A DNA stretch of 51,454 bases from Chloroflexota bacterium (GTDB lineage Bacteria > Chloroflexota > Dormibacteria > Dormibacterales > Dormibacteraceae). Location of the stretch: the NCBI GenBank assembly GCA_005881275.1, contig VBEF01000029.1, positions 1 to 51,454 on the forward strand, read 5' to 3'. The notes beneath the pieces were generated by a model that had not been told where the DNA came from, made no database searches, and saw only the letters and a program-made list of their open reading frames with translations. The position numbers were made by a program, and so were the translations under genes. This document shows, in pieces, positions 1 through 41,293 of this stretch (position 1 is the first letter of the stretch; each line of letters begins with the position of its first letter).

Positions 1-571
1 GGACATGTTCGCGCTGTGCGTCTTCATCCGCTTCCCAATGGGGCATACCGCCGACCACGTCCGCACCCGCCTCGAGCGCAGCCTCCATGAGTTCGTGTGC
101 GCCCGGATCACGCAGGAGACCTTCATGCGGGCAGGCGATTATTCGAACCTCGGCGATGTCGGCGCAGTCAGCCGCCGCCGCCTTGACGCCTTCGAGCGGG
201 ATGAGGCCGCCGATGGTGTCCACGTCCACGTGGGAGCGCAGGCGCGTGGTGCCGAGCCTGACCGAGTCCTCGATCACCGTGCGGGCGCGCGCTCGCACGT
301 CTTCCACCGTGTACCGCCGCTTCCGCTCGTGGATCGCGCCGATGGCGCCGGCAAGCGTGCCGTCGTGCTCGCGCAGCTCGTCGCGGATCAGAACCTTGTC
401 CAGGTGCACGTGGCCGTCGACGAAGCCAGGCAGGACGAGCTTGCCCGAGCAGTCGAGGCGGTCATTCAGGCCATCGGCTGCGCCGGCTCCGAGCCTTGCG
501 ATCCGGTCCCCGTCGATGACGACGTCCGCGATCGCGCCTGTGGGCAGGCGCGCATCTTGCAAAGCCCACAT
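1..571 (-). CDS. Cytosine deaminase-like amidohydrolase (CodA/AtzC family), 3' end outside window
   Basis: Reading the minus strand from the ATG at 571-569 gives about 190 uninterrupted residues running off the left edge, so only the N-terminal half of a roughly 400-residue protein is seen. After a short beta-sandwich segment comes the amidohydrolase metal motif HVHLDK (H54, H56), then a segment close to E. coli cytosine deaminase (RSHVDVD, PHEGLL, GADVVGGMPHWE). Family members are TIM-barrel metal enzymes that deaminate cytosine or, in AtzC, N-isopropylammelide. The HxHxDK form occurs in AtzC-type members, so substrate cannot be fixed from this half. It is divergent from a UraA-type permease with 69 bp between them, and conversion of cytosine to uracil would feed the pathway encoded to the right. 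Family call firm; cytosine as substrate is inference. Confidence 0.8.
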   Translation of the reverse strand, partial: MWALQDARLPTGAIADVVIDGDRIARLGAGAADGLNDRLDCSGKLVLPGFVDGHVHLDKVLIRDELREHDGTLAGAIGAIHERKRRYTVEDVRARARTVIEDSVRLGTTRLRSHVDVDTIGGLIPLEGVKAAAADCADIAEVRIIACPHEGLLRDPGAHELMEAALEAGADVVGGMPHWEADEDAQREHV

Positions 572-640
572 GGGCGGCTACCATAACGCCGGGCCCGAGT
601 CGCTGAGGTGGGGGCCGGGTGCCGCTTGGAGGGAGAAGCC
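572..640. promoter_or_regulatory. Divergent intergenic region between deaminase and permease operon
   Basis: These 69 bp separate the starts of two divergent genes and must hold the leader of the permease operon and probably promoters for both directions. A strong purine-rich ribosome site (GGAGGGAGAAG, 628-638) lies just before the permease ATG at 641. I see no convincing -35/-10 pair or operator palindrome. Confidence 0.4.
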
Positions 641-1963
641 ATGGCGGTGGCAACTGGGAAGCGCGAGCGCGACGTCGTCTATCCCGAGGATCGGCTTCCG
701 TGGCCGCAGACCATCCTCATGGGCCTGCAGCACGTCATGGCCATGTTCGGCGCCACCGTTCTGGTTCCGCTCATCCTCGGCTTCAATCCCAATACGGTGA
801 TCTTCTTCAGTGGCGTCGCGACCCTGATCTTCCTTTTCGTCACCGGGTTCAAGGTCCCCAGCTATCTAGGCTCCAGCTTCTCGTTCATAGGTTCGGTCCT
901 GGCGGTGCAGGGGACGCAAAACCCCAACCATGGCCTGGCTTACGCAGGCATCGTGATGGCCGGAGTCATCTACCTGATCATCGGAGCGATCGTCCACTTC
1001 GTCGGCGTGAACCCGATCCGATACCTGCTGCCGCCGGTGGTCACCGGCACAGTCGTGGCGGTCATCGGTCTCGCGCTTGCGAGCGCCGCCACCGGCAACT
1101 ACGCGGGCGAACCATTCACCGCAACGGTCACGCTGCTCGCCGCGGTCGCCGCGGCGGTCTACCTCCGGGGCTTTCCACGCTTGCTGCCGGTTTTGATCGG
1201 CATCGTGGTGGGCTACGTCGTTTCCGCCTTCTATCCGCCCTGCGCGGACGCCAAGTCCGCCTGCCACATCGACTTCAATGCCATCGGGCAGGCCTCGCTT
1301 GTCGGTGTGCCGTCGTTCAGCTTTCCTGACTTCAGCCAGTTCGGCACAACGCTCAGCCTGTTCTTCTTCATCCCGGTCATCCTGGTCGCCGAGAACGCCG
1401 GCCATGTGTACGCGATCAGCGGCATCATGAAGCGTGATCTGAGCCACATGCTCGGGCGCACGTTCATTGGCGACGGGCTCGGGACCACAATCAGCGGACT
1501 GCTGGGTGGAACAGGCGAGACGACCTATGCGGAGAACATCGGCGTGATGGGCATCACGCGTGTCTTCTCCATCATGGTTTTCGTGGTTGCGGCTGTGACC
1601 GCGATCCTGCTGGGTTTCATCCCCATCTTCGGCGCCCTCGTACGCAGCATCCCGGTGAGCGTGCAGGGCGGGATCGAGATGTACCTCTTCGGCCTCATCG
1701 CTGTGATCGGCGGCAAGATCTGGGTCGACGCGAAGGTGGATTTCTCGAAGCGCGCGAATCTCGCCGTGGCGGCGATTCCGCTCATCATCGCGGCCGGCAT
1801 TCCCGCCACCCAGGCCATCCCGATTCACCTCGGCGGGCTGACCCTGACCTTCAACAACCTGGGTCTCGGCGCGCTGAGCGCCATCGTCCTGTACCAGCTC
1901 CTGCGTCCCGGCCACGTGCGCGACACGGAGGCGGAACCGGCGGAGATCGTGGCCACGGAGTAG
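641..1963 (+). CDS. NCS2 family nucleobase permease, UraA-type (uracil uptake)
   Basis: A 440-residue polytopic protein of the NCS2 (nucleobase-cation symporter 2) family. An opening QHVMAMFGATVLVPLI segment is followed by the two functional segments of E. coli UraA: AENAGH in the TM8 region and GETTYAENIGVMGITRV in the TM10 region. UraA has the near-identical NTTYGENIGVMAITRV, and the Glu in each is known to contact uracil in UraA. Purine (xanthine/urate) NCS2 members differ at this second motif, so uracil or a related pyrimidine is the best substrate guess. The ATG at 641 is preferred over an upstream in-frame GTG at 608 because of the adjacent GGAGGGAGAAG ribosome site. First gene of a seven-gene rightward operon ending at 8342. 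Confidence 0.9.
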   Translation: MAVATGKRERDVVYPEDRLPWPQTILMGLQHVMAMFGATVLVPLILGFNPNTVIFFSGVATLIFLFVTGFKVPSYLGSSFSFIGSVLAVQGTQNPNHGLAYAGIVMAGVIYLIIGAIVHFVGVNPIRYLLPPVVTGTVVAVIGLALASAATGNYAGEPFTATVTLLAAVAAAVYLRGFPRLLPVLIGIVVGYVVSAFYPPCADAKSACHIDFNAIGQASLVGVPSFSFPDFSQFGTTLSLFFFIPVILVAENAGHVYAISGIMKRDLSHMLGRTFIGDGLGTTISGLLGGTGETTYAENIGVMGITRVFSIMVFVVAAVTAILLGFIPIFGALVRSIPVSVQGGIEMYLFGLIAVIGGKIWVDAKVDFSKRANLAVAAIPLIIAAGIPATQAIPIHLGGLTLTFNNLGLGALSAIVLYQLLRPGHVRDTEAEPAEIVATE

Positions 1964-1992
1964 GACCCCCGCCGTGGTAGAACAGAGTTGAA

Positions 1993-2565
1993 TTGAACCC
2001 CGCGCTGCTGACGCTACCGGCCGCGTTTGGCCTCGCCGGCGCGAGCGGCCTCAACGCGACCCTGCCGCTCCTCATCGTGAGCCTCCTCGCGCGGCTGGGC
2101 CTCGTCCACCTTGCGTCTCCCTACGACGCCCTGGCTTCAGACATCGCCTTCTACGGGCTGATCGTCCTGGCCGTGGTCGAGTTCGCGATCGACAAGATCC
2201 CGGCGCTCGACTCGGTCGGGCACGCCGTCATGCTGCCGGTGGCCGCAGCCTCCGGCGCGATCCTGTTCGCCTCCCAGACAGGGACCATCACCGGCGTGCA
2301 CCCGGGCCTCGCCGTGCTTGTCAGCGTGCTGGCGGGCGCCGGGGTCTCGTCGACGGTGCACGTCGCGCGCGCGACCGTCCGGCCGGTCGCGAACGTCGTC
2401 CTGATGGGCCCGCCGCTCTCGTTTCTGGAGGACACCGCCTCGGCGGCGCTCGCACTGGCGGGTTCGCTCGCCCCTATCCTCGTCCCGTTCCTGCTCGCGC
2501 TGATCGCGCTCGGCGCGGTCGTGCTGTGGCAGCGCCGCACGCCCTCCATGACCGGCGCGCGCTGA
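1993..2565 (+). CDS. DUF4126-like multi-pass membrane protein
   Basis: About 190 residues, almost entirely hydrophobic with several Gly/Ala-rich membrane helices, resembling the uncharacterised DUF4126 family. The reading frame opens with TTG at 1993, since no ATG or GTG precedes the conserved N-terminal helix (NPALLTLPAAFGLAGASGLNA); its ribosome site is weak. It sits 29 bp after the permease and 18 bp before the malonyl-CoA synthetase gene, so it is very likely cotranscribed with the pyrimidine genes. No catalytic motif is visible. A role in transport or in anchoring a pathway enzyme is possible but unsupported. Confidence 0.7.
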   Translation: MNPALLTLPAAFGLAGASGLNATLPLLIVSLLARLGLVHLASPYDALASDIAFYGLIVLAVVEFAIDKIPALDSVGHAVMLPVAAASGAILFASQTGTITGVHPGLAVLVSVLAGAGVSSTVHVARATVRPVANVVLMGPPLSFLEDTASAALALAGSLAPILVPFLLALIALGAVVLWQRRTPSMTGAR

Positions 2566-2583
2566 TCGGTCATTCTTTGCCGC

Positions 2584-4032
2584 GTGACCGAGAGCATCGA
2601 GGTGCTCCGCCGGCGGTTGCGCTTCGGCACGCTGCCTGAGGCGCTGCTCCAGCCGGGCCGCGACGTCGTCCTTCGCGCCGGCGATCGATCCATCACCCGC
2701 GATGAGCTTCGCGAGCGGGCGGGTGAGGTCGCCGGCGGGCTGCATGATCTGGGGCTGAGTCCCGGCGACCGCGTCGCGCTGTTCGCGGCCAACTCGCTCG
2801 ACTGGGTCACGGCCTACCTCGGCGCTCAGCGCGCGGGCGCTTGCGTCGTGCTGATGAATCCCGACTACCACTCCGCCGAGGCCGAGCACATCCTTCGCGA
2901 CTCGGAGCCTGCGTTGGTCATCGCGGACAAGGCGCGGGCGGCGGTTGTCGAACCGCTCGGAGCGCGGGTTGTCCTGCTCCAGGACTTGCCACGTGCGGCT
3001 GAGCCGGCCATGCCGGCGCTCACGCCCGAGAGTCCGGCCGCGATCCTCTACACGTCCGGGACGACCGGCCGGCCCAAGGGCGCGCTGCTCGACCATGGCA
3101 ACTTCCTCGCTCAGGGTCGCGGCGCGATCGAGGTCTGGCGGTGGACGTCGAGCGACGTCCTCGTCCATGCGCTGCCGCTCTTTCATCTGCACGGTCTTGG
3201 CATGGGCCTCCACGGCACCTTGCTCAGCGGCGCCAGCGCGATCCTGGTTCCGTTCACCCCAGCCGGCGTGGTCACCGAGTTGAAATCGGGTGGCACGATG
3301 TTCTTCGGCGTGCCGTCGATGTACCAACGGCTTTGCGACTGGCTCGACGAGAATCCGACCGACCTCTCCCACGTGCGGGTCTTCGTGTGCGGGTCGGCGC
3401 CGCTGCCGCCTGCGCTCTTTGAGCGATGCGAGCGGTTGCTAGGCCAGCCGCCCGTCGAGCGCTACGGCATCACCGAGGGCGGAATCGTGGTGACGAATCC
3501 TTACCAAGGCCCGCGTCAGCCGGGCCGCGTCGGCTATCCGTTTCCCGGTGTCGAGGTGAAGCTCGGCGAGCTCGACGAGGTGCTCCTCAAGGGCGGCCAG
3601 GTTTTCACCGGCTACTGGCGCAACCCACAGGCTACCAACGAGGCCTTCACCTCCGATGGATTCTTCCGCACCGGTGACGTGGGCGAGATCGGCGGGGACG
3701 GCACGCTTGCGATCCGCGGGCGGATCAAAGAGCTGATCATCACCGGCGGCTTCAACGTCTACCCGCGCGAGGTCGAGCTCGTTCTCGAATCGCATCCAGC
3801 CGTGCAGGAGGTCGCGGTCGCGGGCGTGCCGAGCGAGAAGTGGGGTGAGGAGGTCACCGCGTACGTCGTGCCCTCCGGAACGGAGCCGCTGGTCGAGAGC
3901 GCGCTCATCGCCTTCGCCCACGAGCGTCTCGCGGCCTATAAGTGTCCGAAGCGCGTGATCACGATGGACAGGCTGCCGCGCAACGCGATGGGCAAGGTGC
4001 AGCGTTCGGTCCTGGCATCGCAGCGAACATGA
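2584..4032 (+). CDS. matB: Acyl-CoA synthetase of malonyl-CoA synthetase (MatB) type
   Basis: A 482-residue ANL-superfamily ligase. Visible motifs are the AMP-binding P-loop YTSGTTGRPKGALL (about 155-168), HALPLFHLHGL, the adenine motif YGITEGG, TGDVG, the hinge GRIKELIITGGFNVYPREVE, and the C-terminal catalytic Lys in NAMGKVQR. Within the superfamily it most resembles MatB, with the paired segments FFGVPSMYQRL and VFVCGSAPLP, SNPYDG-like TNPYQGPRQPGRVGYPFPGV and the HALP-HLHG block. MatB makes malonyl-CoA from malonate, ATP and CoA. Malonate is the carbon product of ureidomalonate hydrolysis, so the gene fits the last step of oxidative uracil breakdown. It starts with GTG at 2584, and its stop overlaps the next start (ATGA at 4029-4032). 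Specificity for malonate rather than methylmalonate or another acid is inferred from motif similarity and context. Confidence 0.85.
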   Translation: MTESIEVLRRRLRFGTLPEALLQPGRDVVLRAGDRSITRDELRERAGEVAGGLHDLGLSPGDRVALFAANSLDWVTAYLGAQRAGACVVLMNPDYHSAEAEHILRDSEPALVIADKARAAVVEPLGARVVLLQDLPRAAEPAMPALTPESPAAILYTSGTTGRPKGALLDHGNFLAQGRGAIEVWRWTSSDVLVHALPLFHLHGLGMGLHGTLLSGASAILVPFTPAGVVTELKSGGTMFFGVPSMYQRLCDWLDENPTDLSHVRVFVCGSAPLPPALFERCERLLGQPPVERYGITEGGIVVTNPYQGPRQPGRVGYPFPGVEVKLGELDEVLLKGGQVFTGYWRNPQATNEAFTSDGFFRTGDVGEIGGDGTLAIRGRIKELIITGGFNVYPREVELVLESHPAVQEVAVAGVPSEKWGEEVTAYVVPSGTEPLVESALIAFAHERLAAYKCPKRVITMDRLPRNAMGKVQRSVLASQRT

Positions 4033-4811
4033 GGTTTCTCGACCTCACCCAGGACTTCTCGCTGCATACGCCGGCTTTCGCCGGCTACCCGGGTCCGGCG
4101 ATCCGCTGGATCAAGCACCTCGCCTTCGATCGTGCCGGCGGCCAGGAGATCACGATGACGCTCCATGTCAGCACACACCTGGACGCGCCGGCGCATTTCA
4201 TGACCGGCGGCAAGTTCATCGGCGACCTGCCGCTCGACTTCCTCATAGGCCCCGCATGCGTGGTCGACCTCGAGCGGCTTGGCATCGGCGACTACGACGT
4301 GTACGGTCCCGAGCACTTCGAGCGTTGGGAGAAAGCCACCGGGCTGAAGATCGAGCGCGGCGACATCCTGGTCATCCGCACCGGCTACCACCGCTACTAC
4401 CCCGAGAACTGGACCGACCGCTCGCATGTCGATGAGACGCGTTACTTCATCCGGCATCCGGGACCGGCGCGCGAGTTCGCCGAATGGGTGCTCAAGCGCG
4501 GCGTGCGGTGGATCGCGGTGGACGCTGGAAGCGCCGACCATCCGATGAACACGGTGATCCGGCGCATCCGCGCTGACGAGGCGGAGGAAGCGGAGGTGAA
4601 GCTCGGCCGCAGCCTCGACCAGATCTTTCCCAAGGCCGACTACCAGATCATGCACACGCTGCTGTTCCCGCACGACGTGGTACACATCGAGAACCTCGGC
4701 GGGCAGCTCGACGAGGTGCTCGACCGCAAGATCCGGTTCGGTTGTTTTCCGTGGCGATTCCAGGGCGGCGAGGCCGCGCTGTGCCGCGCGGTCGCGATCC
4801 TCGACGAGTGA
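4029..4811 (+). CDS. Cyclase-family metal-dependent hydrolase (kynurenine formamidase/isatin hydrolase-like)
   Basis: A 260-residue member of the putative cyclase family (Pfam Cyclase, PF04199), whose characterised members are Mn- or Zn-dependent hydrolases of amide bonds such as kynurenine formamidase and isatin hydrolase. The signature HVSTHLDAPAHF (H46, H50, D52, H56) supplies the metal ligands; DAGSADHP follows in the middle, and HTLLFPHDVVHIENL near the C terminus is the usual conserved end block. The ATG at 4029 overlaps the matB stop. It is followed directly by the molybdenum hydroxylase genes through a GTGA overlap. In this operon it could cleave a ureido or amide bond of a pyrimidine breakdown product, making it a second candidate for ureidomalonate hydrolysis. 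The substrate is unknown. Confidence 0.8.
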   Translation: MRFLDLTQDFSLHTPAFAGYPGPAIRWIKHLAFDRAGGQEITMTLHVSTHLDAPAHFMTGGKFIGDLPLDFLIGPACVVDLERLGIGDYDVYGPEHFERWEKATGLKIERGDILVIRTGYHRYYPENWTDRSHVDETRYFIRHPGPAREFAEWVLKRGVRWIAVDAGSADHPMNTVIRRIRADEAEEAEVKLGRSLDQIFPKADYQIMHTLLFPHDVVHIENLGGQLDEVLDRKIRFGCFPWRFQGGEAALCRAVAILDE

Positions 4812-5560
4812 AGCCGCCTCCCTTCGAGTACCACGCGCCCACGACGCTGGATGAGGCCTGCTCCTTGCTGGCCTCACTCGAGGAGGCGAAGGTTTTGGCA
4901 GGTGGCCAGTCGCTCATCCCGCTGCTCAACTTCCGCCTGGCGAGGCCTCGTCACCTGCTGGACATCAACCGGGTCGCCGGTCTCGATCGGATCTACGAGC
5001 GCGATGGCGGAATCGCCGTCGAAGCGCTCGGGCGCCAGGCGGCTGTTGAGGACTCCGACCTCGTGGCGCGCGTCTGCCCGCTGCTCGGCGAGGCGGTGCG
5101 CCTGGTCGCGCACCGCGTCATCCGCAACAGGGGAACCGTATGCGGCAGCCTCGCCCACGCCGACCCCGCATCCGAGCTGCCCGCCGTGCTGCTCGCGCTT
5201 GGCGGTCACGTCATCGCCCAATCGGCCCGCGGCAAGCGCACGATCGCCGCCGATCAGCTGTTCCGGGGCGTTTTCGAGACGGCGCTGGAGACGGACGAGA
5301 TGGTCGTTGAAGCCTGGTTTCCGGCATCTCCACAGCCGTTCGCGATCCTGGAAGAGTCGCGCCGCCATGGCGATTTCGCGCTTGCCGGGGTCGTGAGGGC
5401 GGACACCAGGCTCGCTCTGTTCGGCGTCGGGTCAACTCCCGTGCTGGCTGACCGGAGTGACGCAACGCGCGGCCTGCAGCCGAGCGGCGACCTGGAGGCG
5501 ACGCCGGACTTCCGGCTCCACCTCGTGCGCGTCCTGACCGAGAAGGCGTTCGCCGCGTGA
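4808..5560 (+). CDS. FAD-binding medium subunit of a xanthine dehydrogenase-family molybdenum hydroxylase
   Basis: A 250-residue CoxM/XdhB-like subunit that carries electrons from the iron-sulfur subunit through FAD to an acceptor. FAD-binding signatures are LAGGQSLIPLLNFRLARP and RNRGTVCGSLAHADPASELP, the latter the CoxM-type version of TIGGNLAHADP. A CO_deh_flav_C-like end is present but short; typical homologues are about 280-290 residues. The GTG start at 4808 overlaps the previous stop (GTGA) and places the protein start just before the conserved FEYHAPTTLDEA; an upstream in-frame ATG at 4742 would lie inside the cyclase gene and give an unrelated leader. It forms an operon with the small and large subunits downstream. 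Confidence 0.88.
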   Translation: MKPPPFEYHAPTTLDEACSLLASLEEAKVLAGGQSLIPLLNFRLARPRHLLDINRVAGLDRIYERDGGIAVEALGRQAAVEDSDLVARVCPLLGEAVRLVAHRVIRNRGTVCGSLAHADPASELPAVLLALGGHVIAQSARGKRTIAADQLFRGVFETALETDEMVVEAWFPASPQPFAILEESRRHGDFALAGVVRADTRLALFGVGSTPVLADRSDATRGLQPSGDLEATPDFRLHLVRVLTEKAFAA

Positions 5561-6009
5561 AGGTGAATGAGGTGGAATATCCGGCGCCGGCCGATGCCCG
5601 GCGTCTGCTCTCCGACCACCTGCGACACGACCTGGGCCTCACCGGCACCCACGTCGGCTGCGAGCACGGAGTCTGCGGCTGCTGCACGGTGCTGCTGGAT
5701 GGGAATCCGGTGCGTTCGTGCCTGATGCTCGCGGTGCAGGCCGAGGGCCACGAGCTCACGACGGTCGAGGGGCTCGCGCGCAGCGGCGCGCCGCTCCACC
5801 CGGTGCAGCAGGCATTTCATGAAACCCACGGCCTGCAGTGCGGCTTCTGCACGCCGGGATTCGTGATGTCCGTCGTCGGGCTGCTGGCGCAGCATCCCCA
5901 ACCAACCGCGCAGCAGATCGAAGAAGGCATCGCCGGCAACCTGTGCCGCTGCACCGGCTATGCATCAATCCGGCGCGCGGTGACCCGCGCGGTGGAATTG
6001 TCGAAATGA
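5557..6009 (+). CDS. [2Fe-2S] small subunit of the molybdenum hydroxylase
   Basis: A 150-residue CoxS/XdhC-type protein with two [2Fe-2S] clusters. The plant-ferredoxin-like N-terminal cluster uses GCEHGVCGCCTVLLDG plus a later Cys in VRSC. The C-terminal cluster uses QCGFCTPGF and NLCRCTGY. Length and Cys spacing match the family. The GTG start overlaps the medium-subunit stop, and its own stop TGA (6007-6009) overlaps the large-subunit ATG. It passes electrons from the molybdenum centre to FAD. Confidence 0.93.
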   Translation: MKVNEVEYPAPADARRLLSDHLRHDLGLTGTHVGCEHGVCGCCTVLLDGNPVRSCLMLAVQAEGHELTTVEGLARSGAPLHPVQQAFHETHGLQCGFCTPGFVMSVVGLLAQHPQPTAQQIEEGIAGNLCRCTGYASIRRAVTRAVELSK

Positions 6010-8342
6010 CGACCCGCTGGTTCGGCGCGCCGGTGCAGCGCGTCGAGGACGACCGCCTGCTGCGCGGGCGCGGGCGCTTCACTGACGATATCGGTGAAGG
6101 CGCTCTCGAATGCTGCTTCGTTCGGTCGCCGCACGCGCACGCCCGGATCACGTCGATCGATGTGAACGAGGCGCGAGCGATGCCCGGCGTGGCTGCCGTC
6201 TACACGGCGGCCGACCTGCCTTTCGGTGGCCTCGACCTTCCACTTCTAATCCCGCATCCCAACCTGACCCACGGCCGCACGCAGCGGTGTCTGGCTTCAG
6301 AGATCGTGCGATACGCGGGCGAGGCGGTTGCATTCATCGTCGCGGAAAGCAGATACCTCGCCGAAGACGCAGCGGACCTGGTGCAGGTGGAATACGAGCC
6401 GCTGCCGGTGGTCATCACACCGGAAGCCGCCGCTCGCGCCGAGCACCTCGTGCACGACGACGTGCCGGGCAACGTCGCCGCGGAGATGGTGCAAGAGGTC
6501 GGAGACGTCGACGAAGCGCTGGCCGAGGCCCCTCACCGCAAGCGGTTGCGCTATCGATATGAGCGCGGGGCGGCCAGCCCGATGGAAGGGCGCGCGGTTT
6601 GGGCGAGCTGGTCGGACGCCGACCGCAAGCTGACCGTCTACGACTCGACTCAGTCGCCGACGTCGATTCGGGGCGGCCTGGCGGTGCTCTTCGGACTGCC
6701 TGAGTCGAACGTCGAGGTGATCGCTCCCGACGTCGGTGGAGGCTTCGGGCCGAAGATCATGCTTTTCTACCCCGACGAGCTGCTGGTGCCGTACGCCGCG
6801 ATGCAGCTCGGCCGTCCCGTGAAGTGGACCGAAGACAGGCAAGAACACTTCACCGCGGTCAACCAGGAACGCGGACAGGTGCACGAGGTCGAGGTGGGCT
6901 TCGACGATGAAGGCCGTGTGCTCGCGCTGGACGACGACTTTATCCACGACGGAGGCGCGTACACACCGTACGGGATCATCCTTCCGATCATCACCGCGGC
7001 CCAGGTGCCTGGGCCGTATCGGATCGCAAACTATCGGGTCCGGTTTCGCGACCTGTACACGAACGCGACGCCCACCTCGCCCTACCGCGGCGCGGGGCGG
7101 CCGCATGCATGCTTTGTGATGGAGCGCACTCTCGACGCAATCGCGTCTGAGCTGGGCATTGATCGCATCGAGGTCCGGCGGCGCAACCTGATAAAGCAGG
7201 ATCAGTTTCCGTACGACGTCGGTGTCGCGTGGCAGGACGGCAACGCCGTCGTTTACGACAGCGGCGACTACCCGGCGCTGCTCGAGCGGGCGGTCGCCAT
7301 GCTGGGACCGAAACCGAACGGCGACAACATCGGCATGGGCATCGGCGTCTACGTCGAAGGCACCGGGGTCGGCCCGTATGAAGGCGCTCACGTCCAGGTC
7401 CTTGTCTCGGGCAAGGTCGTGGCGGCGACCGGGATCCCAAGCCAGGGCCAGGCCCACGCAACGGTGTGGGCTCAGGTCGTCGCCGACGAGCTTGGAGTGG
7501 ATGTCAAGGACGTTGAGATCACGAGCGGCGATACACGCCGTTTTCCCTGGGGCGTGGGCACCTTCGCGTCGCGCGGCGCGGTCACCGCGGGCAACGCGAT
7601 GCACGTCGCGGCGCGCATGGTGGCCGGTAAGGCGAAGCAGATTGCGGCCGATCACCTCGAGGCGAATCCCGCGGACCTCGAGCTGGCAGGCGGCCGGGTG
7701 CGGGTGAAGGGCTCGCCAGATCGCGGCATTCCGCTGGCGGCGGTCGCCGTGCTTTCGAACCCGATGCGCTACGCCTTCGGGGGCGGCACCGAGGCGGCGA
7801 CGCAGTTCGCTTCCAAAGCCCGTCCCGGTCCGCCGCTGCACGAAGGCGAGCAGCCGGGTCTCGAGGCGACCGGCTACTACAGCCCGCCGGGTTCTACGTG
7901 GGCGTCAGGATGCCATGCGGCTTACGTGCGGGTCGACCCGAAAACGTTTCGACTCGAGATACTCAAATACGTCGTAGTGCATGACTGCGGCCGCGTAATC
8001 AATCCGCTCGTCCTGCAGGGTCAGATCGAAGGGGGCGTCGCGCAGGGCATCGGCGGTGCGTTCTACGAGCGGCTTGCCTACGACTCGGACGGCCAGCTGC
8101 GCAACGCGTCCTTCATGGAGTTCCTCATCCCTTACGCGACCGAGATCCCGCCGATCGAGATCGACCACATCGAAACGCCCTCGCCGCTGAACCCGCTGGG
8201 GGTGAAGGGGGCGGGGGAGGCGGGCGTGATCCCTGTCGGTGCGGTGATCGGGTCGGCAATCGCGGACGCACTCGGTGTGCCGGTCGCCGAGATGCCCCTC
8301 TCGCCGTTGAAGCTCTACGAGCTCGCTACGAGTCGGCCCTGA
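6006..8342 (+). CDS. Molybdopterin-binding large subunit, candidate uracil/thymine dehydrogenase
   Basis: A 778-residue XDH/aldehyde-oxidase-family catalytic subunit. The ATG at 6006 (RWFGAPVQRVEDDRLLRGRG) is chosen over an upstream ATG at 5838 that lies inside the small-subunit gene. Motifs include DVGGGFGPK (about 242), the active-site loop SPYRGAGRP (about 358-366) and GVKGAGEAGV near residue 732 with the catalytic Glu. The loop lacks the Cys of the CO dehydrogenase motif (AYxCSFR), so it is not a CO dehydrogenase. Family members hydroxylate a ring carbon next to nitrogen, which is the chemistry needed to turn uracil into barbiturate. The UraA-type permease, barbiturase-like gene and matB around it make uracil or thymine the leading substrate; xanthine or another N-heterocycle remains possible. 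Its 3' end overlaps the convergent barbiturase-like gene by 17 bp. Confidence 0.88.
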   Translation: MTTRWFGAPVQRVEDDRLLRGRGRFTDDIGEGALECCFVRSPHAHARITSIDVNEARAMPGVAAVYTAADLPFGGLDLPLLIPHPNLTHGRTQRCLASEIVRYAGEAVAFIVAESRYLAEDAADLVQVEYEPLPVVITPEAAARAEHLVHDDVPGNVAAEMVQEVGDVDEALAEAPHRKRLRYRYERGAASPMEGRAVWASWSDADRKLTVYDSTQSPTSIRGGLAVLFGLPESNVEVIAPDVGGGFGPKIMLFYPDELLVPYAAMQLGRPVKWTEDRQEHFTAVNQERGQVHEVEVGFDDEGRVLALDDDFIHDGGAYTPYGIILPIITAAQVPGPYRIANYRVRFRDLYTNATPTSPYRGAGRPHACFVMERTLDAIASELGIDRIEVRRRNLIKQDQFPYDVGVAWQDGNAVVYDSGDYPALLERAVAMLGPKPNGDNIGMGIGVYVEGTGVGPYEGAHVQVLVSGKVVAATGIPSQGQAHATVWAQVVADELGVDVKDVEITSGDTRRFPWGVGTFASRGAVTAGNAMHVAARMVAGKAKQIAADHLEANPADLELAGGRVRVKGSPDRGIPLAAVAVLSNPMRYAFGGGTEAATQFASKARPGPPLHEGEQPGLEATGYYSPPGSTWASGCHAAYVRVDPKTFRLEILKYVVVHDCGRVINPLVLQGQIEGGVAQGIGGAFYERLAYDSDGQLRNASFMEFLIPYATEIPPIEIDHIETPSPLNPLGVKGAGEAGVIPVGAVIGSAIADALGVPVAEMPLSPLKLYELATSRP

Positions 8343-9465
8343 CGACTGCCGCGACGATGTTGCCTCCCGGTGGTCCCTGGTGCGAGTTGCGCTCGCCCCC
8401 GCTCACATAGTTCGTGGTGCGGCCGGTGACCGACGCGACGAGCATGCCCCCCAGCGCCTTTCCGATCTGGTAGGCGTCGGCGTCGTCGAGCAGGGTGATC
8501 CGCTGGCCGCGGACCTGATCGCTGCCCGGGATCACGGATTTCGCGAAGACGTGGACCAGGCGCGTCAGGTCGGCCTCGTCGGGCAATCCGTCTTTGAAAT
8601 GCAGGCCGGCCGAACGCAGCGCTTTGCGCACACCCTCAGCGTCGATGAAGTCCCGCGTCACGGAATGGCCGATCCGGAGCGGGCTCTGCGAGGTGTTCGA
8701 GTTGCCGAACACGACGACCTCGCCGTGACGCTTTTCGCCCCCGGACGAGGTCATCGCCACCTCTGAATAGAGATCCCAGTTGCGGCGCACCGCCTCGTCC
8801 GACAGCGAGGACTCGGGGACCTCGCCGAGTGCCATCGCGACCCCCAATGCGGCGGCGTCGTTCGCGTACGCTCCCGCGCCTTCGGGACCGAACGTCAGGT
8901 CGTGCGAGACGACGGTCTTGCCGCGCGATTCCGCGTCCTTGATGCTCGAGGTCGTCAACCCCGGCACCTTGACCATGACCAGGTGCACGTCCTTCGGATC
9001 GCTCAGCGCCGCATCCGCCATCGCGCGGTGCGTCGCCTCGGCGACCTTGCGGATCATGCCCATCCGGCCGACTTCCTCGGGGGCGATTGCATCCGACCCG
9101 GCCCGACCGACGACGAGTCGCTTGTCGTCCTGGGCGTTGCCCTCGGGAGCCTCGATCCACTCGCGCGTCACGGCGGCGATGTGTGGCGTGATCACGCCGG
9201 GGCACCCACCCGAGAGAACGAAGATGACCTGTTTGGCGACGTCCTCGACCTGGATGCCGAGAAACTTCGCGGTCCATTCGCGCAGCGCCACATCCGCCCA
9301 CACACGACCCCAGTCGTCGTGCGCGCCGGTGCCTTCGGTCTTGCCGACCAGCGCGACGAGCGTTTCCGGCTTGATCTTTCCCGCGTCCGCCAGCCTTTGC
9401 AGGCCTGACGTGTCCGCGGGCGTGGCCGAGGGGCACACGAACATCTCGACGCGCTGAGCTTTCAT
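8326..9465 (-). CDS. Ring-opening amidohydrolase, barbiturase/cyanuric acid hydrolase (AtzD) family
   Basis: A 379-residue enzyme of the small AtzD/TrzD/barbiturase family, found for barbiturate or cyanuric acid ring hydrolysis. The family's three-fold repeat with a Lys/Ser pair in each unit is intact: K42 (GKTEGTG) with S85 (SGGCPG), K166 (VKVPGL) with S241 (SSGGEK), and K309 (FAKS) with S355 (SGGERN). The C-terminal block HQGPPGG is also present. Length matches the family (about 360-375). The ATG at 9465 lies 4 bp after the amidase stop; a frame extending to 9558 would overlap the amidase and is not favoured. Sequence alone does not separate barbiturase from cyanuric acid hydrolase, but uracil-type uptake, a molybdenum hydroxylase and matB around it favour barbiturate as substrate and ureidomalonate as product. 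Confidence 0.88.
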   Translation of the reverse strand: MKAQRVEMFVCPSATPADTSGLQRLADAGKIKPETLVALVGKTEGTGAHDDWGRVWADVALREWTAKFLGIQVEDVAKQVIFVLSGGCPGVITPHIAAVTREWIEAPEGNAQDDKRLVVGRAGSDAIAPEEVGRMGMIRKVAEATHRAMADAALSDPKDVHLVMVKVPGLTTSSIKDAESRGKTVVSHDLTFGPEGAGAYANDAAALGVAMALGEVPESSLSDEAVRRNWDLYSEVAMTSSGGEKRHGEVVVFGNSNTSQSPLRIGHSVTRDFIDAEGVRKALRSAGLHFKDGLPDEADLTRLVHVFAKSVIPGSDQVRGQRITLLDDADAYQIGKALGGMLVASVTGRTTNYVSGGERNSHQGPPGGNIVAAVVRADS

Positions 9466-9469
9466 CCAT

Positions 9470-10753
9470 CTACTCCATATCGGGCGGTCGTTGGAAACCG
9501 AAGCCGGGCATCTTTTCCAGCTGCTCTGCGAAGTCGAGAAGCTCGTACTCCTGGGCAAATCTTCCGACCAGCTGGACGCCGACCGGCAGTCCGTCGTGAA
9601 GACCCGCGGGAATGGAGATTGCCGGCGTACGCGCGAAGCTCACTGGTAGCACGAACTGCACGTAGCGCGCCCACTCCTCGCCGAGAAAAGGCGGGACATT
9701 CTCGATCGGCATGGGCAGCAGACCGAGCGTTGGCGTGAGCAGGAAGTCGTAACGCGTTTGAAGTGGCACCCCGACGGCGCGATTGGCAGCGTCAGTCGCC
9801 TTCTCGAAAGCCTGGAAATAGTCCATCGCGGTGAGTCCGCGGCCTTCAGCGGCCAGCTTGCGGATGCCTGGGCCGAACGTGGAGAGATCGGCAGGAAAGC
9901 TTGCCATGCTGGCGCGGCGCACGACGCCGTAGCCCTCCGTGACGGGCTCCGGGTCCCACTTGATCTGCTCGATCTCATTGCCCGCCGATTCCAGCGCGCG
10001 GGCGGCGCGGTGGCAGGCTTCGCGCACGGCGGGATCCGCGCCAAGGGCGCTGGAATCGGCCATCCCGATCAGGGCGCGGCGCTTCGGCTGCGCTCCGTTC
10101 GGGCTGGTCGCCGTCATCACCGAGAAGAGCAGCCGGGCGTCCGCGACGGTGCGCGTCATCGGGCCACGTGACTGCAGCACGATCACGTCGACCTCCTCGG
10201 ACGGAATTCGATCCGGGGTCGGTCGCAGGCCGACGACGCCGCAGCACGAGGCAGGGATCCGGATCGATCCTCCGGTGTCTCCGCCCAGCGCGACCGAGGC
10301 CATCCCGGCGGCGACCGCCGCGCCGCTGCCGCCGCTGGAGCCTCCCGGCGTGACGCCCTCCCGCCATGGATTCTGGGTCGCCGGAAAGATCGTGTTGGTC
10401 GTGCCGATTGACGCGGCAAGCTCGGGGAGGTTGGTCTTGCCGAGAATCGCCATCCCGGCCGTCCTCGCGCGCGAGACCGGCACCGCGTCCTGCTCGGCGA
10501 TGCGGTCGCGCCAGGATTGCGTGCCATAGGTGTAGGGCATCCCCGCGACGGGCTGGCTGTCCTTGACGGCGAGCGTCACGCCCGATGCCGAGCGGGCGTT
10601 GCGGTCGACATGAATGTACGCATGAATCCGCGAATCGAATCGATCGATCGCGTCGAGGTGCGCCTGCACCACGTCTTGAGGATTGACCTGGCCGGCGCTC
10701 ACCCGATGCGCCGCTTCCGTGGCCGAAAGCCACCGCACCGACGCTTCGATCAC
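9470..10753 (-). CDS. Amidase-signature family hydrolase, candidate ureidomalonase
   Basis: A 427-residue amidase-signature enzyme with the full Ser-cisSer-Lys triad: Lys in LAVKDS, the Gly/Ser-rich GGSSGGSG, and the nucleophile region GGDTGGSIRIPA. The family hydrolyses amide and ureido bonds and includes AtzE and AtzF of cyanuric acid breakdown and allophanate hydrolases. The GTG start overlaps the preceding nucleosidase-like stop (GTGA at 10753-10750), and the gene ends 4 bp before the barbiturase-like start, so the three leftward genes form one operon. Directly ahead of a ring-opening amidohydrolase, the natural job is to split the ring-opened product: ureidomalonate into malonate and urea. 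The family call is firm; the substrate is inference. Confidence 0.87.
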   Translation of the reverse strand: MIEASVRWLSATEAAHRVSAGQVNPQDVVQAHLDAIDRFDSRIHAYIHVDRNARSASGVTLAVKDSQPVAGMPYTYGTQSWRDRIAEQDAVPVSRARTAGMAILGKTNLPELAASIGTTNTIFPATQNPWREGVTPGGSSGGSGAAVAAGMASVALGGDTGGSIRIPASCCGVVGLRPTPDRIPSEEVDVIVLQSRGPMTRTVADARLLFSVMTATSPNGAQPKRRALIGMADSSALGADPAVREACHRAARALESAGNEIEQIKWDPEPVTEGYGVVRRASMASFPADLSTFGPGIRKLAAEGRGLTAMDYFQAFEKATDAANRAVGVPLQTRYDFLLTPTLGLLPMPIENVPPFLGEEWARYVQFVLPVSFARTPAISIPAGLHDGLPVGVQLVGRFAQEYELLDFAEQLEKMPGFGFQRPPDME

Positions 10754-11445
10754 AGCTCGTCCACGACTGCTTGAATGATGCTCTCGAACAGGTTGGCGGC
10801 GGTGCTCACGCCGAAGCCGATGACGCCTCGGAGGTCGAAGGTTTCATCGGCGGCGTCGGACATCACACGCAGCGCAGACCAGGCGAGCCCGTTCTGATGC
10901 GCAACCTGTGCGACCGCGGCCGTCTCCATGTCAACGCAAGCGGCGTCGGGAAAATCGCGCGCGAGCGCGTCGCGCACGGCGCGCGAGGTGACGATCTGGT
11001 CACCGGTGAGCACGAGACCCGACCGCGCGTCCTTGGACTCAAATCGGGCGGCCAGGAGCAGCTTCTCAGCCACCGCCGGATCCGCCGTGATGACCGAGAG
11101 GCCAAGTCCCGGAATTACGCCTTTCGCGTCGGTCAACGGCCGGCCGTCGAGGTCATGCTGCACAGCTCCGGTCGCGACGATGACCTGGCCCGGGCGGGCG
11201 CCGTCCTCGAGTCCGCCGGCAAGCCCGATTCCGATCAAGCACCGTGGCTTGAAGACGTCGCACGCGTACTGGGCGGCCAGCGCCGCGGCGACTTTGCCGA
11301 CACCAGCGACCATGACCACGAGGCCGCCGCCTTCCCAGATCGAGAGTCGCGGCCCGACGCTCTCCGCTCGCGGCATCCTGCGCACCAGAGCGTGGGCTTC
11401 CTGCTCGAGGGCCGCGATCACGGTTACCGGACGGAGGTCAGCCAT
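10750..11445 (-). CDS. MTA/SAH nucleosidase-like protein (PNP_UDP_1 superfamily)
   Basis: A 231-residue nucleoside phosphorylase/hydrolase-fold protein. The family signature VDMETAAVAQVA with the catalytic-site Glu, GIGLAGGL near the phosphate/ribose site and LRVMSDAAD with the base-contacting Asp are visible; these match 5'-methylthioadenosine/S-adenosylhomocysteine nucleosidases and futalosine hydrolases. It is the first gene of the leftward barbiturase operon and lies 24 bp from the divergent phosphoketolase start. It may release a nucleobase from a nucleoside for the downstream pathway, or may be a housekeeping MTA/SAH nucleosidase carried in the same transcript. The exact nucleoside cannot be told from sequence. 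Confidence 0.82.
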   Translation of the reverse strand: MADLRPVTVIAALEQEAHALVRRMPRAESVGPRLSIWEGGGLVVMVAGVGKVAAALAAQYACDVFKPRCLIGIGLAGGLEDGARPGQVIVATGAVQHDLDGRPLTDAKGVIPGLGLSVITADPAVAEKLLLAARFESKDARSGLVLTGDQIVTSRAVRDALARDFPDAACVDMETAAVAQVAHQNGLAWSALRVMSDAADETFDLRGVIGFGVSTAANLFESIIQAVVDEL

Positions 11446-11469
11446 AACCGAGCATCATGAGGGGTGCGG

Positions 11470-13863
11470 ATGAACCAGGCCAGGACCGCCGCCGCGCCCG
11501 ACCTAGAGCGCGCCCAGCCCCTCACCGCCGACGAGCTCCGGCTCATCGACGCCTACTGGCGCGCGGCCAACTACCTGAGCGTCGGACAGATCTACCTCTT
11601 CGACAACCCACTGCTGAAGCGACCGCTCCGTTTGGAGGACATCAAGCCCCGCCTTCTGGGTCACTGGGGCACGACTCCGGGGCTGAACTTCATCCACGCC
11701 CACGCCAACCGCCTGATCAAGAAGCGCGACCTCGACGCGATTTACATCATGGGCCCAGGGCACGGCGGTCCAGCCGGGGTGGCCAACGCGTACCTCGAAG
11801 GGACGTACACGGAGCGCTACCCCGACGTGACGCTGGATGAGACCGGGCTGCGCAAGCTGTTCCGGCAGTTTTCGTTTCCGGGCGGAATCCCGAGTCACAA
11901 CGCGCCCGAGACGCCGGGCTCGATCCACGAGGGCGGCGAGCTCGGTTACGCGCTGGTCCATGCGTATGGGGCTGCTTTCGATAACCCGGAGCTGACGGTG
12001 TTCTGCATCGTGGGCGACGGCGAAGCTGAGACCGGACCACTCGCAGCCAGCTGGCACTCGAACAAGTTCCTCAACCCGGCTCGGGATGGAGCAGTGCTGC
12101 CGATCCTCCACCTCAATGGCTACAAGATCGCCAATCCCACGCTGCTGGCCCGCATCCCGGAGCGCGAGCTGATCGAGTTGATGCGCGGCTACGGCCATGC
12201 GCCGGTGATCGTGAGCGGCGACGATCCGCCGAGGGTGCATCAGCAGATGGCTGCGGCGCTGGACTGGGCGCTCGACGAGATCGCGCGCATCCAGGGCGAG
12301 GCGCACTCGGATCACCATCCAGGACGCCCGAGCTGGCCGATGATCATCCTTCGCACGCCCAAAGGGTGGACCGGCCCAAAGAACGTCGACGGCGAGCCGA
12401 TCGAGGGCACGTTCCGCGCCCACCAGGTGCCGGTCACCGGCTTTGCCTCGGACCCGAGCCATGTGAAGATCCTCGAGGACTGGCTGCTGCGCTATCGTCC
12501 CGAGGAGCTGTTCGATAAAACCGGCAAGGTCGTCGATGAGGTGCTGAGGCTGCCGCCGCAGGGTGACCGGCGAATGAGCGCGAATCCCCATGCGAACGGA
12601 GGCGAGCTGCTGCGGGACCTCCGCCTGCCGGACTTTCGCGATTACGCGATTGCCGTGGCGAGGCCCGGAACGACGACAAGCGAGGCGACACGCGTGCTGG
12701 GGCGCTACCTGCGCGACGTGATCAAGATGAACCCGGACAACTTCCGCATCGTCGGCCCGGATGAGACGGAGTCCAACCGTCTCAGCGCCGTGTTCGAGGC
12801 GACGAACCGGACCTGGGACGCGGAGGTCGTGCCCGGCGATGACCACCTCGCGCCGGAGGGCCGCGTCATGGAGGTCTTGAGCGAGCACATGTGCGAGGGC
12901 TGGCTCGAGGGCTACCTGCTCACGGGCCGCCACGGCCTATTCGACTGCTACGAGGCCTTCATCCACATCATCGACTCGATGTTCAACCAGCACGCGAAGT
13001 GGTTGAAGGTGACGCGGCACATCCCGTGGCGGCGTCCCATCGCCTCGTTGAACTATTTGCTCTCGTCCCACGTGTGGCGGCAGGATCACAACGGGTTCTC
13101 GCACCAGGACCCTGGCTTCATCGACCACGTCGTGAACAAGAAGGCGGAGGTCATCCGCGTTTATCTGGCGCCTGACGCCAACTGCCTGCTCTCGGTGGCG
13201 GACCACTGCCTGCGGAGCCGCAACTACGTGAACGTGATGGTCGCGGGCAAGCAGCCGGCGCTGAACTACCTGTCGATGGAGGACGCGATCGCGCACTGCA
13301 CGCGTGGCCTGGGTATCTGGGACTGGGCGAGCACGGATGAGGGTCGCGATCCGGACGTCGTGCTGGCTTGCGCCGGAGATGTGCCCACTCTCGAGACGCT
13401 GGCCGCGGCCGATCTCATCCGCCAGCACCTGCCGCAGGTCGCCGTCCGCTTCGTCAACGTCGTCGACCTGATGCGGCTGCAGCCGCCGACCGAGCACCCC
13501 CATGGTTTGCGGGATGCGGAGTTCGACGAAGTGTTCACGGCCGACAAGCCGGTGATCTTTGCCTACCACGGCTATCCGTGGCTGATCCACCGCCTCACGT
13601 ATCGCCGGACGAACCATCCCAACATCCACGTCCGCGGATACAAGGAGGAAGGCACGACCACCACGCCTTTCGACATGGTGATGCTCAACGACCTGGATCG
13701 CTATCACCTCGTGATGGACGTCATCGATCGCGTCCCATCGCTGGGCTCCAAAGCGGCGCACATCCGCCAGACGATGGTCGACCAACGCCTGCACGCCCGC
13801 CGGTACACACGCGACCACGGGCGGGACGCACCCGAGATCACCGACTGGGCCTGGCCGCACTAA
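11470..13863 (+). CDS. xfp: Xylulose-5-phosphate/fructose-6-phosphate phosphoketolase
   Basis: A 797-residue thiamine-diphosphate enzyme of full family length. Characteristic blocks are [11 protein letters not shown] near residue 70, [18 protein letters not shown], the ThDP-binding GDGEAETGP and WHSNKFLNP. The enzyme splits xylulose-5-phosphate or fructose-6-phosphate with phosphate into acetyl phosphate plus glyceraldehyde-3-phosphate or erythrose-4-phosphate. The ATG at 11470 is chosen because GAGGGG (11459-11464) lies 5 bp before it; a GTG at 11464 sits inside that ribosome site. The acetate kinase gene follows 5 bp downstream, so acetyl phosphate can be turned directly into acetate and ATP. 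Confidence 0.96.
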
Positions 13864-13868
13864 ACCCC

Positions 13869-39102: not shown

Positions 39103-39392
39103 GAACACCCTCCACGAATACGAAGATTTGACGGGCCCCAAGCTGATCCTAGGAAGCAACCGGGCAAACAATCAGGTGAGACTGATACAAACGTGAGCCA
39201 CCGGTTTACGTGTGGTTGACACGAACCGATGTCCCAAAGGACGGCTTCTGTGTTGTGTGATCACCACGAGGCGCGGTCGTCCAATTCGTTCAGGCCGCAC
39301 GTTTTTGCCGTCCCCCGAGCGCCCCTACGCTGGCTCCATCAAGCGGTGCGGCTGATGGCCGCGCCTGGGGAATCACAACGGAGGTGGCGTCC
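39103..39392. promoter_or_regulatory. Divergent control region between glnA and amt
   Basis: 290 bp without a gene. Contains the palindromic element at 39210-39224, and otherwise no RNA gene, repeat or clear -10 box. It must carry the promoters for glnA (leftward) and amt-glnB (rightward). Confidence 0.5.
39210..39224. promoter_or_regulatory. 15-bp palindromic element upstream of amt/glnA
   Basis: GTGTGGTTGACACGA; with one more base on the left it becomes CGTGT-N5-ACACG. Near-identical to the element before the GAF/PucR gene (35800-35814). It is a candidate operator for a nitrogen regulator, possibly that same protein. Confidence 0.45.
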
Positions 39393-40895: not shown

Positions 40896-41293
40896 CGGCG
40901 AACGGAAGTGGATTCGACATGAAGATGATCGTCGCGATCATCCGCCACGAACGGTTGCAGGAGGTCCAGGACGTGCTGGACGAGTGCGGCGTGTCGGGTG
41001 TGACGGTCACAGAGGTCAAGGGATGCGGCGCCCAGCGCGGCTATACCGAGAAGTACCGCGGGGCGTCCGTGCACATATCGCTTCGGCCGCGGCTCAAGGT
41101 TGAGGCGGTCATGAAATCGGAGATCGTGGCAACGGTGGTCGACAAGCTGGCGGTCGCCGGTCGAACCGGCAACGGCGAGGTCGGCGACGGCAAGATCTTC
41201 GTCATCGGAGTTGAGGACGCCGTGCGGATCCGCACCGGCGAGCACGGCCCGGAAACGGTCCAGCACGCCGAGCGTGCGATGTGGGGCCACTAA
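40892..41293 (+). CDS. PII nitrogen regulatory protein with altered T-loop
   Basis: A 133-residue PII protein (GlnB/GlnK), the nitrogen-status sensor that gates Amt and other targets. TVTEVKGCGAQRGYTEKYRG and VGDGKIFVIGVEDAVRIRTGE are the family signatures. The E. coli uridylylation Tyr51 (in GAEY) is replaced: here the segment reads YRGASVHISL, with Val at that position, though the earlier Tyr of YRG is kept. A 9-residue N-terminal extension is supported by a strong AGGAGGT ribosome site 9 bp before ATG 40892. Control by uridylylation at the usual site is thus unlikely. Confidence 0.93.
   Translation: MTANGSGFDMKMIVAIIRHERLQEVQDVLDECGVSGVTVTEVKGCGAQRGYTEKYRGASVHISLRPRLKVEAVMKSEIVATVVDKLAVAGRTGNGEVGDGKIFVIGVEDAVRIRTGEHGPETVQHAERAMWGH

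Follow-up and report, generated by a model that had tools for sequence, protein, structure and literature searches.

A gene island conserved in a family of Candidatus Dormibacterota and its probable role in the uptake and oxidative breakdown of pyrimidine bases

The first 11,445 nucleotides of contig VBEF01000029.1 (assembly GCA_005881275.1) hold an island of genes that the original prediction, made from the letters alone, read as a nearly complete pathway of oxidative pyrimidine catabolism from cytosine to malonyl-CoA. The window analyzed here is this entire contig of 51,454 nucleotides (C51; G000:C51:1-51454), part of a genome bin of 2.94 Mb that is 86% complete; its close relatives with names belong to Candidatus Dormibacterota or are soil “Chloroflexi” bins. 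All of the genes named for positions 1 to 11445 were found, and in three units as described: unit 1 on the minus strand (571-2), unit 2 on the plus strand (641-8342), and unit 3 on the minus strand (11445-8326), with five gene joints formed by 4-base start/stop overlaps (ATGA or GTGA) (Table 1). We consider it probable that the island encodes the uptake and oxidative breakdown of pyrimidine bases. Direct support comes from the identities of the genes, from their conserved linkage, and from a molybdenum hydroxylase (Mo-hydroxylase) subfamily that travels with barbiturase-signature genes; every substrate in the scheme proposed below is a prediction.

Table 1. Features of the island and its immediate flank in the window
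Feature	Coordinates	Strand	Evidence
CodA/AtzC-type amidohydrolase (deaminase), N-terminal 190 aa only, truncated at the contig start	2..571	-	PF07969, 34.8 bits
NCS2 nucleobase permease	641..1963	+	PF00860, 251 bits (scanned from 638); start ATG 641
DUF4126 membrane protein	1993..2565	+	PF13548, 109 bits
AMP-forming acyl-CoA ligase, MatB-like	2584..4032	+	PF00501; best PDB matches are malonyl-CoA synthetases
Cyclase-family metal hydrolase (isatin hydrolase/kynurenine formamidase family)	4029..4811	+	PF04199, 127 bits
Mo-hydroxylase FAD subunit (M)	4808..5560	+	PF00941
Mo-hydroxylase 2Fe-2S subunit (S)	5557..6009	+	PF01799, PF00111
Mo-hydroxylase molybdopterin subunit (L), PYRGAGR motif; candidate uracil/thymine dehydrogenase	6006..8342	+	PF02738, PF20256
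Cyclic amide hydrolase (CyAH; AtzD/TrzD/barbiturase family), 5hy0 branch	8326..9465	-	PF09663, 386.9 bits, cutoff 25
Amidase-signature enzyme	9470..10753	-	PF01425, 263 bits
PNP_UDP_1 family protein, MTA/SAH nucleosidase by NCBIfam	10750..11445	-	PF01048; TIGR01704
Divergent neighbors, phosphoketolase and acetate kinase	11464..14972	+	PF09364/PF03894/PF09363 and PF00871

To place the island among its relatives, 42 genomes of the host's family, mostly metagenome bins, were searched; the per-genome counts track related lineages and are not independent, and genes in the fetched loci were called with a simple GC-frame caller that misread some frames. The molybdopterin subunit L is present in 34 of the 42 genomes (E value of 1e-200 or better), the amidase in 36 (50 to 100% identity), and a cyclase match in 32, in some of which (such as G071 and G111) it consists of pieces only. 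An AtzD-family gene occurs in 30: 27 of window type (at least 83% identity), 1 at 52% (G027), and 2 of barbiturase type (G071 and G371). Of the 27 genomes with the window type, 21 have CyAH and L on one contig and within 3 kb of each other; the others have the two genes on separate contigs (4 genomes) or no match to L (2 genomes). Because the order cyclase-M-S-L facing CyAH-amidase, the conserved core, recurs in relatives together with this linkage, the island is more than a chance assembly: the gene set is genuine, it has a core that is conserved across the family, and the expected co-occurrence in related genomes is borne out. The permease, ligase, DUF4126 protein, deaminase, and PNP_UDP_1 protein are each found in part of the relatives. 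An Actinobacteria bin (UBA5176) carries the ligase, amidase, CyAH, and L-S-M together, and the unit therefore crosses phyla. A search of phage records gave no match, and the 132 plasmid records with a match are all below 60% identity.

We regard L-S-M, from its sequence and setting, as a strong candidate for the uracil/thymine dehydrogenase; it would be the natural first enzyme, because the oxidative pathway runs from uracil to barbiturate and then through barbiturase. To our knowledge, this activity has been recognized for decades with no gene assigned to it. Full-text literature searches, whose coverage excludes most subscription papers, showed no assignment of a uracil dehydrogenase gene among the matches listed, and a full-text search found no literature combining pyrimidine with molybdenum hydroxylase.

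The linkage to barbiturase was seen in one draw of 396 Actinomycetota genomes, 26 of which gave AtzD-family matches: 4 of the window branch (G400 to G403), 1 of cyanurate type (L080), and 21 bearing the barbiturase signature. Stretches with unequal flanks were fetched around all 21 of these last genes and labeled by tblastn with one query for each gene. Window-type M-S-L lies ~4 to 18 kb from the class VI barbiturase-signature gene in 10 of the 21 genomes (G454, G412, G465, G627, G521, G708, G680, G478, G427, and G786), 9 stretches being too short to tell whether M-S-L is present. The linked homologues are 55 to 60% identical to the window's in L (cut off in G786 and mostly so in G427) and 65 to 72% in S; since Mo subunits outside the window's class V type reach at most 44% identity to L in the four genomes queried, the 55 to 60% band looks specific. 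The genes recovered from the same 21 stretches were FdrA or AllG (15 stretches), carbamate kinase (16), HyuB (8), an amidase with 30 to 36% identity to the window's (5), and a CodA-type deaminase (4). In G680, the gene beside barbiturase encodes a ligase that shares 49% identity with the window's, a relative of the ligase lies near barbiturase in G708, and the G521 stretch holds a dihydropyrimidinase-like gene (48%). The order in G708, all on one strand, is barbiturase, deaminase, permease, carbamate kinase, FdrA, AllG, M-S-L, amidase, HyuA, and HyuB. Queries for uricase, HIU hydrolase, OHCU decarboxylase, and allantoate amidohydrolase gave no match in the 21 stretches, so no purine pathway is seen there. 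Clusters of ~20 to 25 kb with carbamate kinase, FdrA, and AllG surround barbiturase in G627 (L106/L168), G708 (L110/L172), and G478 (L112/L177), and AllH was matched in two other genomes. Several of these loci are at least as rich as the island, which overturns the earlier remark that there are few places where all steps lie together.

In the NCBIfam library, L scores 1158.5 bits against model NF040766 (aerobic carbon monoxide (CO) dehydrogenase group 5, marked “exception”; cutoff 950), and two barbiturase-linked L homologues that were scanned score above it, at 1395 and 1444 bits. That cutoff is not reached by the dissimilar Mo subunits that neighbor barbiturase in G071 (L034) and G704. The motif PYRGAGR is present in 21 of 22 stretches scanned, the gene being cut in the remaining one (L178). 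In the portion of PMC4053681 available to us, AYXCSFR is the active-site motif of form I CO dehydrogenases and PYRGAGR an odd motif of Saccharomonospora viridis; the available portion of PMC3758960 places S. viridis among the holders of AtzD-family genes, apparently in the barbiturase group. CO dehydrogenase was rejected for L on its motif. Xanthine dehydrogenase was rejected on its scores (376 versus 780 bits for XdhA and 284 versus 784 bits for PucD) and on the separate xanthine dehydrogenases of relatives.

The second enzyme, CyAH, retains the catalytic residues found throughout its family (three Ser-Lys dyads, a Glu, and an Arg: K35, S78, K159, S233, E237, K302, S348, and R47), which are invariant among 8 aligned sequences, with positions matched by hand using the accessible part of PMC4051656; this argues that it should be active on some cyclic amide. 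As far as the accessible text of PMC3758960 (Peat et al., 2013) goes, barbiturases are marked by Asn195, His321, Lys325, Val345 (which narrows the pocket), and Ser or Ala346, and cyanurate enzymes by Arg195, Thr321, Arg325, Gly345, and Gly346. The corresponding residues of CyAH are Asn, Tyr, Lys, Gly, and Gly, so that it departs from the barbiturase signature at three of the five specificity positions (321, 345, and 346), and it has a two-residue gap near 321 and the loop SGGERNSHQGPP. The 23 class VI rows read Asn, His, Lys, and Val, followed by Ser, Ala, or Gly. A cyanurate pathway was rejected, CyAH having neither Arg195, Thr321, nor Arg325.

In a tree of 38 rows, CyAH groups with 5hy0, Arthrobacter L063, and L015 (support, 100/100), and on the other side are the 23 rows that bear the barbiturase signature and three of cyanurate type; this tree omitted the named barbiturase 5hwe, and the program flags 5hy0, L063, and L015 as long branches. 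Among solved structures, the nearest relative of CyAH is likewise PDB 5hy0 (381 bits, versus 220 bits for 5hwe). By both signature and tree, then, CyAH is not a barbiturase, which weakens the barbiturase step of the original prediction. The 5hy0 enzyme, from Frankia, was reportedly solved by Peat et al. in 2017 as a class V enzyme and is said to have neither cyanurate nor barbiturate activity. As cited elsewhere, the title of that paper refers to two functionally distinct members. The residues given for group V in the accessible text of PMC3758960 (position 195 absent; Gly, Arg, or Trp at 321) do not fit the alignment of the CyAH/5hy0 branch, which speaks against that label. Relatives of CyAH at 52 to 53% identity stand with an amidase and, judged by eye, a sugar-type ABC transporter in two phyla, namely, in Arthrobacter sp. 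MI7-26 (L063, 2034-11110), where a crotonase and a class III CoA-transferase are also present, and in G027 (L032, 1827-8347), where the 52% gene is on a different contig from the island.

The window's deaminase gene ends before the informative site, and the comparison was made through its full-length orthologue L052, for which the best solved match is the Klebsiella cytosine deaminase (PDB 4r7w, 240 bits; E. coli CodA, 221 to 222 bits). We take 4r7w, 4r85, and 4r88 to be the Klebsiella 5-methylcytosine deaminase. The metal site of E. coli CodA has Asp-Asp; according to the accessible part of PMC6186785, the second of these residues is critical, 5-methylcytosine deaminase has Ser in its place, and changing it to Ala in CodA gives activity on 5-methylcytosine. 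Two distinct deaminase groups occur on the class V side, both lacking this Asp: it is replaced by Cys in 6 genomes with window-type CyAH (G289, G275, G087, G215, G801, and G809) and by Ser in 4 (G296, G079, G247, and G799). The Asp is kept in 3 of 3 readable deaminases from barbiturase loci (G708, G717, and G786).

Two kinds of permease accompany the core. The window's own scores 373 bits against RutG, 292 against UraA, and 177 against the xanthine permease PbuX, none over the NCBIfam cutoff, and carries ENIG, the glutamate form of the NCS2 motif, which is the form of uracil carriers. G296, G079, G247, and G799 have an NCS1-type permease (PF02133) nearby, along with a CodA-like deaminase that differs from the window's, and no NCS2 relative of the window permease was found in the fetched loci of these four genomes.

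For the later steps, the best NCBIfam model of the ligase is malonyl-CoA synthase (418 bits, cutoff 558), and its best solved relative is MatB; the motif after ERYG reads ITEGGIVVTNP versus MTETNMNTSNP. Judged by these matches, malonate is a likely substrate: the predicted malonyl-CoA ligase is indeed MatB-like, and it stays below the cutoff of the malonyl-CoA synthase model. The amidase adjoins CyAH in relatives and falls below all specific NCBIfam cutoffs shown (AtzE, 149.8 versus 425.8 bits; allophanate hydrolase, 132 versus 511 bits). We know of no ureidomalonase sequence or gene. Because true barbiturase is often accompanied by FdrA-AllG and carbamate kinase, we suggest that in those loci an N-acylurea is split by phosphorolysis to carbamoyl phosphate, by analogy with what is proposed for oxalurate. 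Pfam names AllG and AllH as oxamate carbamoyltransferase subunits, and the accessible text of PMC3364942 discusses genes of this type as candidates in allantoin breakdown. No FdrA-AllG-carbamate kinase module adjoins the window branch, where the amidase may act in its place. The PNP_UDP_1 gene, joined to that of the amidase by a GTGA overlap, was described as nucleosidase-like, and such a gene is present; its product exceeds the NCBIfam MTA/SAH nucleosidase cutoff (TIGR01704, 87.9 versus 73.8 bits) and looks like that enzyme. For the CyAH gene, a start at 9465 is likelier than the alternative at 9444.

Within the family, the surroundings of the Mo-hydroxylase vary. The run NCS2 permease-M-S-L-FdrA-AllG occurs in G071 and G111, with AllH next in G111; in both (L127 and L129), the cyclase gene is in pieces, perhaps as a decaying gene or through an assembly fault. 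AllG lies upstream of the cyclase in G175, G254, and G354, with AllH and a carbamate kinase-like gene nearby in the first two and FdrA in the third. The cyclase, nearly as widespread as L, stays with L-S-M in G391, G354, G175, and G254, where CyAH is absent, and the actual partner of the Mo-hydroxylase may be this enzyme. Contig C21 of the genome to which the window belongs has two copies of AllG, which lie beside glutamine synthetase-like genes and, by eye, look unrelated. In G371, an NCS1 permease is near L, and a dihydropyrimidinase above the NCBIfam cutoff is ~9 kb away.

HyuA-HyuB faces L in G391, G354 (with two genes between), and G027, where amidase-HyuAB occupies the place held elsewhere by amidase-CyAH. 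Window-type CyAH (27 genomes) and the HyuB orthologue (7 genomes) co-occur in none of the 42 family genomes. The idea that HyuAB and CyAH replace each other at one step is weakened by the HyuB found near true barbiturase in Actinomycetota and in the barbiturase genome G371, and HyuAB may do another step. In both phyla, this pair (ATP-dependent hydantoinase) accompanies the Mo-hydroxylase of the window's kind (L123, L124, and L128, and L174 of G680).

G247 combines amidase-CyAH, L-S-M-cyclase, an NCS1 permease, and a protein above the NCBIfam cytosine deaminase cutoffs, followed by purine genes, of which those for xanthine dehydrogenase, uricase, HIU hydrolase, OHCU decarboxylase, allantoinase, and allantoate amidohydrolase exceed their cutoffs. 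In G027, too, purine genes that include a separate xanthine dehydrogenase lie next to the island, and the separate enzyme in these two genomes argues that the Mo-hydroxylase of the window is not a purine enzyme.

In the scheme that we propose, the NCS2 permease would import the base, and the CodA-type deaminase would convert cytosine, or perhaps 5-methylcytosine, to uracil or thymine. The Mo-hydroxylase would then hydroxylate the ring to a barbiturate, CyAH would open the barbiturate ring to an N-acylurea acid, the amidase would cut this acid further, and the MatB-like ligase would activate a malonate-type acid as its CoA thioester. The cyclase-family hydrolase and the DUF4126 protein fall outside the scheme. 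Oxidative pyrimidine catabolism is thus upheld at the level of the pathway, through the Mo-hydroxylase linked to barbiturase-signature genes in another phylum, the CodA-type deaminases, the two kinds of nucleobase permease, and a purine branch in relatives that has its own xanthine dehydrogenase; at the level of single steps, the further claim that the genes supply each one is weakened, and the well-conserved cyclase has no place in the proposed pathway.

Several observations weigh against this scheme. CyAH stands outside the barbiturase group in signature and tree, and its nearest solved relative, 5hy0, presumably cleaves neither barbiturate nor cyanurate. Its 52 to 53% relatives in Arthrobacter and G027 accompany an ABC transporter, with no Mo-hydroxylase nearby. 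The permease, deaminase, and ligase are absent from part of the class V loci, and the cyclase, among the best conserved genes, is given no role. In Actinomycetota, barbiturase was found with no nearby Mo-hydroxylase in G488 (~27 kb searched on each side) and G500 (28 and 9 kb), and G704, one of the 9 short stretches, has a different, xanthine dehydrogenase-like Mo set. The one NCS2 permease scanned from a barbiturase locus (L106) scores higher against the xanthine model (273 bits) than against the uracil model (113 bits), but it too carries ENIG, so that this motif does not decide. Urease alpha exceeds its cutoff in only 1 of the 42 family genomes (G371), and three others match weakly without reaching it. 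Urea carboxylase exceeds its cutoff in none of the 42; for this enzyme, the cutoff alone was used, as the NCBIfam model matches all 42 genomes, apparently through biotin carboxylase.

On the original prediction, the pathway runs from cytosine to uracil, barbiturate, ureidomalonate, malonate plus urea, and finally malonyl-CoA, with CyAH as barbiturase and the amidase as ureidomalonase. We hold this exact route to be possible and on balance doubtful. The family assignments of the genes, the MatB-like ligase, the catalytic residues kept in CyAH, and its barbiturase-like Asn195 and Lys325 all fit it. Set against these are the Tyr/Gly/Gly of CyAH at 321/345/346 in place of His/Val/Ser-Ala, its position outside the barbiturase-signature clade (100/100), the occurrence of barbiturase-signature genes as a separate lineage in the same family (G071 and G371), and a cyclase left unexplained. 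The near absence of urease and urea carboxylase makes the urea ending doubtful, leaving the ureidomalonase-to-urea step with no direct support; a route that discards urea is possible.

Rather more tentatively, the island could serve a 5-methylcytosine/thymine branch, in which the deaminase would yield thymine, the Mo-hydroxylase would yield 5-methylbarbiturate, CyAH would act as a “5-methylbarbiturase,” and methylmalonate-type acids would reach the ligase. The idea arises because Gly345 of CyAH leaves room where barbiturase has Val, which together with the Asp-less deaminases suggests a 5-methyl substrate; the deaminase sample is small and phylogenetically clustered, the G247 enzyme exceeds the cytosine deaminase cutoffs, and a permissive deaminase could still use cytosine. 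Among the matches listed in a full-text search, none dealt with 5-methylbarbiturate catabolism. Were the proposal true, the orphan CyAH branch would gain its substrate, and true barbiturase, with the Asp-bearing deaminase, FdrA-AllG, and carbamate kinase, would serve a uracil branch ending in carbamoyl phosphate and ATP rather than in urea.

It is unlikely that the substrate is some other nucleobase-like ring (xanthine, isoguanine, hydantoin, or parabanate), with FdrA-AllG-AllH and HyuAB marking a ureide or hydantoin route. Such a route would account for AllG and AllH, oxamate carbamoyltransferase subunits that the accessible part of PMC3364942 treats as allantoin breakdown genes, for HyuAB near L in relatives, and for the purine genes adjacent to the island in G247 and G027 and near it in G079 and G799. 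It is at odds with the separate xanthine dehydrogenase and uricase of G247, G027, and G079, with the barbiturase stretches that share the Mo-hydroxylase, in which queries for uricase, OHCU decarboxylase, and allantoate amidohydrolase found nothing, and with a G247 deaminase above the cytosine deaminase cutoffs. We give very little credence to an aerobic CO dehydrogenase among otherwise unrelated genes: the name and score of NF040766 and an M-S-L arrangement as in cox operons suggest one, against PYRGAGR in place of AYXCSFR and the linkage to barbiturase-signature genes in 10 Actinomycetota genomes. Equally improbable is the degradation of a pyridine-derived imide (e.g., citrazinate or 2,6-dihydroxypyridine), in which CyAH would open the imide, the amidase free ammonia, and the ligase or a CoA-transferase activate the acid; the CyAH relative of Arthrobacter sp. 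MI7-26 (L063), with its amidase, enoyl-CoA hydratase family protein, and class III CoA-transferase, is in keeping with this, the matches listed in a literature search were mostly chemistry and materials, and the CodA-type deaminases, nucleobase permeases, FdrA-AllG-AllH, and barbiturase linkage would be left unexplained.

Beyond the island, phosphoketolase and acetate kinase are conserved divergent neighbors in part of the relatives and are probably not part of the pathway. At 37657-41293, 26 kb from the island, is a run of genes for nitrogen assimilation: glutamine synthetase (PF00120), ammonium transporter (PF00909), and P-II protein (PF00543).

If the island does act in oxidative pyrimidine breakdown, it offers a candidate gene family for uracil/thymine dehydrogenase that a curated library now labels CO dehydrogenase. 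A pyrimidine-linked Mo-hydroxylase falls within NF040766 (window, L168, L165, L137, and L058), so that annotations based on this model may overstate CO oxidation and genomes may be misread as those of CO oxidizers. It would also give a physiological context to the CyAH/5hy0 branch of Toblerone-fold hydrolases, and, for barbiturase-bearing actinomycetes, the suggested end in carbamoyl phosphate instead of urea would save energy.

Among known systems, the closest in chemistry is the oxidative pathway of Rhodococcus erythropolis, in which Soong et al. reportedly described (2001/2002) uracil/thymine dehydrogenase, barbiturase, and ureidomalonase. The island shares with it the order of oxidation, imide ring opening, and amide cleavage and an enzyme of the AtzD/barbiturase fold, but its CyAH belongs to another branch, and a ligase and a cyclase are added. 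(The accessible text of PMC3758960 cites the R. erythropolis work.) CyAH falls in one clade with the 5hy0 enzyme (100/100), with which it shares the SGGERNSH loop and GEK after the nucleophile Ser, although the branch is long, at 1.15 substitutions per site. The deaminases on the window's side resemble the Klebsiella 5-methylcytosine deaminase, the best solved relative of L052, in lacking the discriminating Asp; they differ in that Cys replaces Ser in the window's own group, Ser being found in G247, G296, G079, and G799. The Actinomycetota barbiturase loci (e.g., G627 and G708) have the same Mo-hydroxylase subfamily, an NCS2 permease, an amidase (30 to 36%), and, in some, a CodA-type deaminase, but they carry class VI barbiturase, carbamate kinase, FdrA, AllG, and HyuAB, in contrast to the CyAH of class V, the cyclase, and the ligase of the window; the FdrA-AllG and carbamate kinase common in those loci are themselves missing from the textbook pathway. 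The chemistry would be that of the known oxidative pyrimidine pathway, and the gene set a variant of it in which the ring-opening enzyme differs and a cyclase is added.

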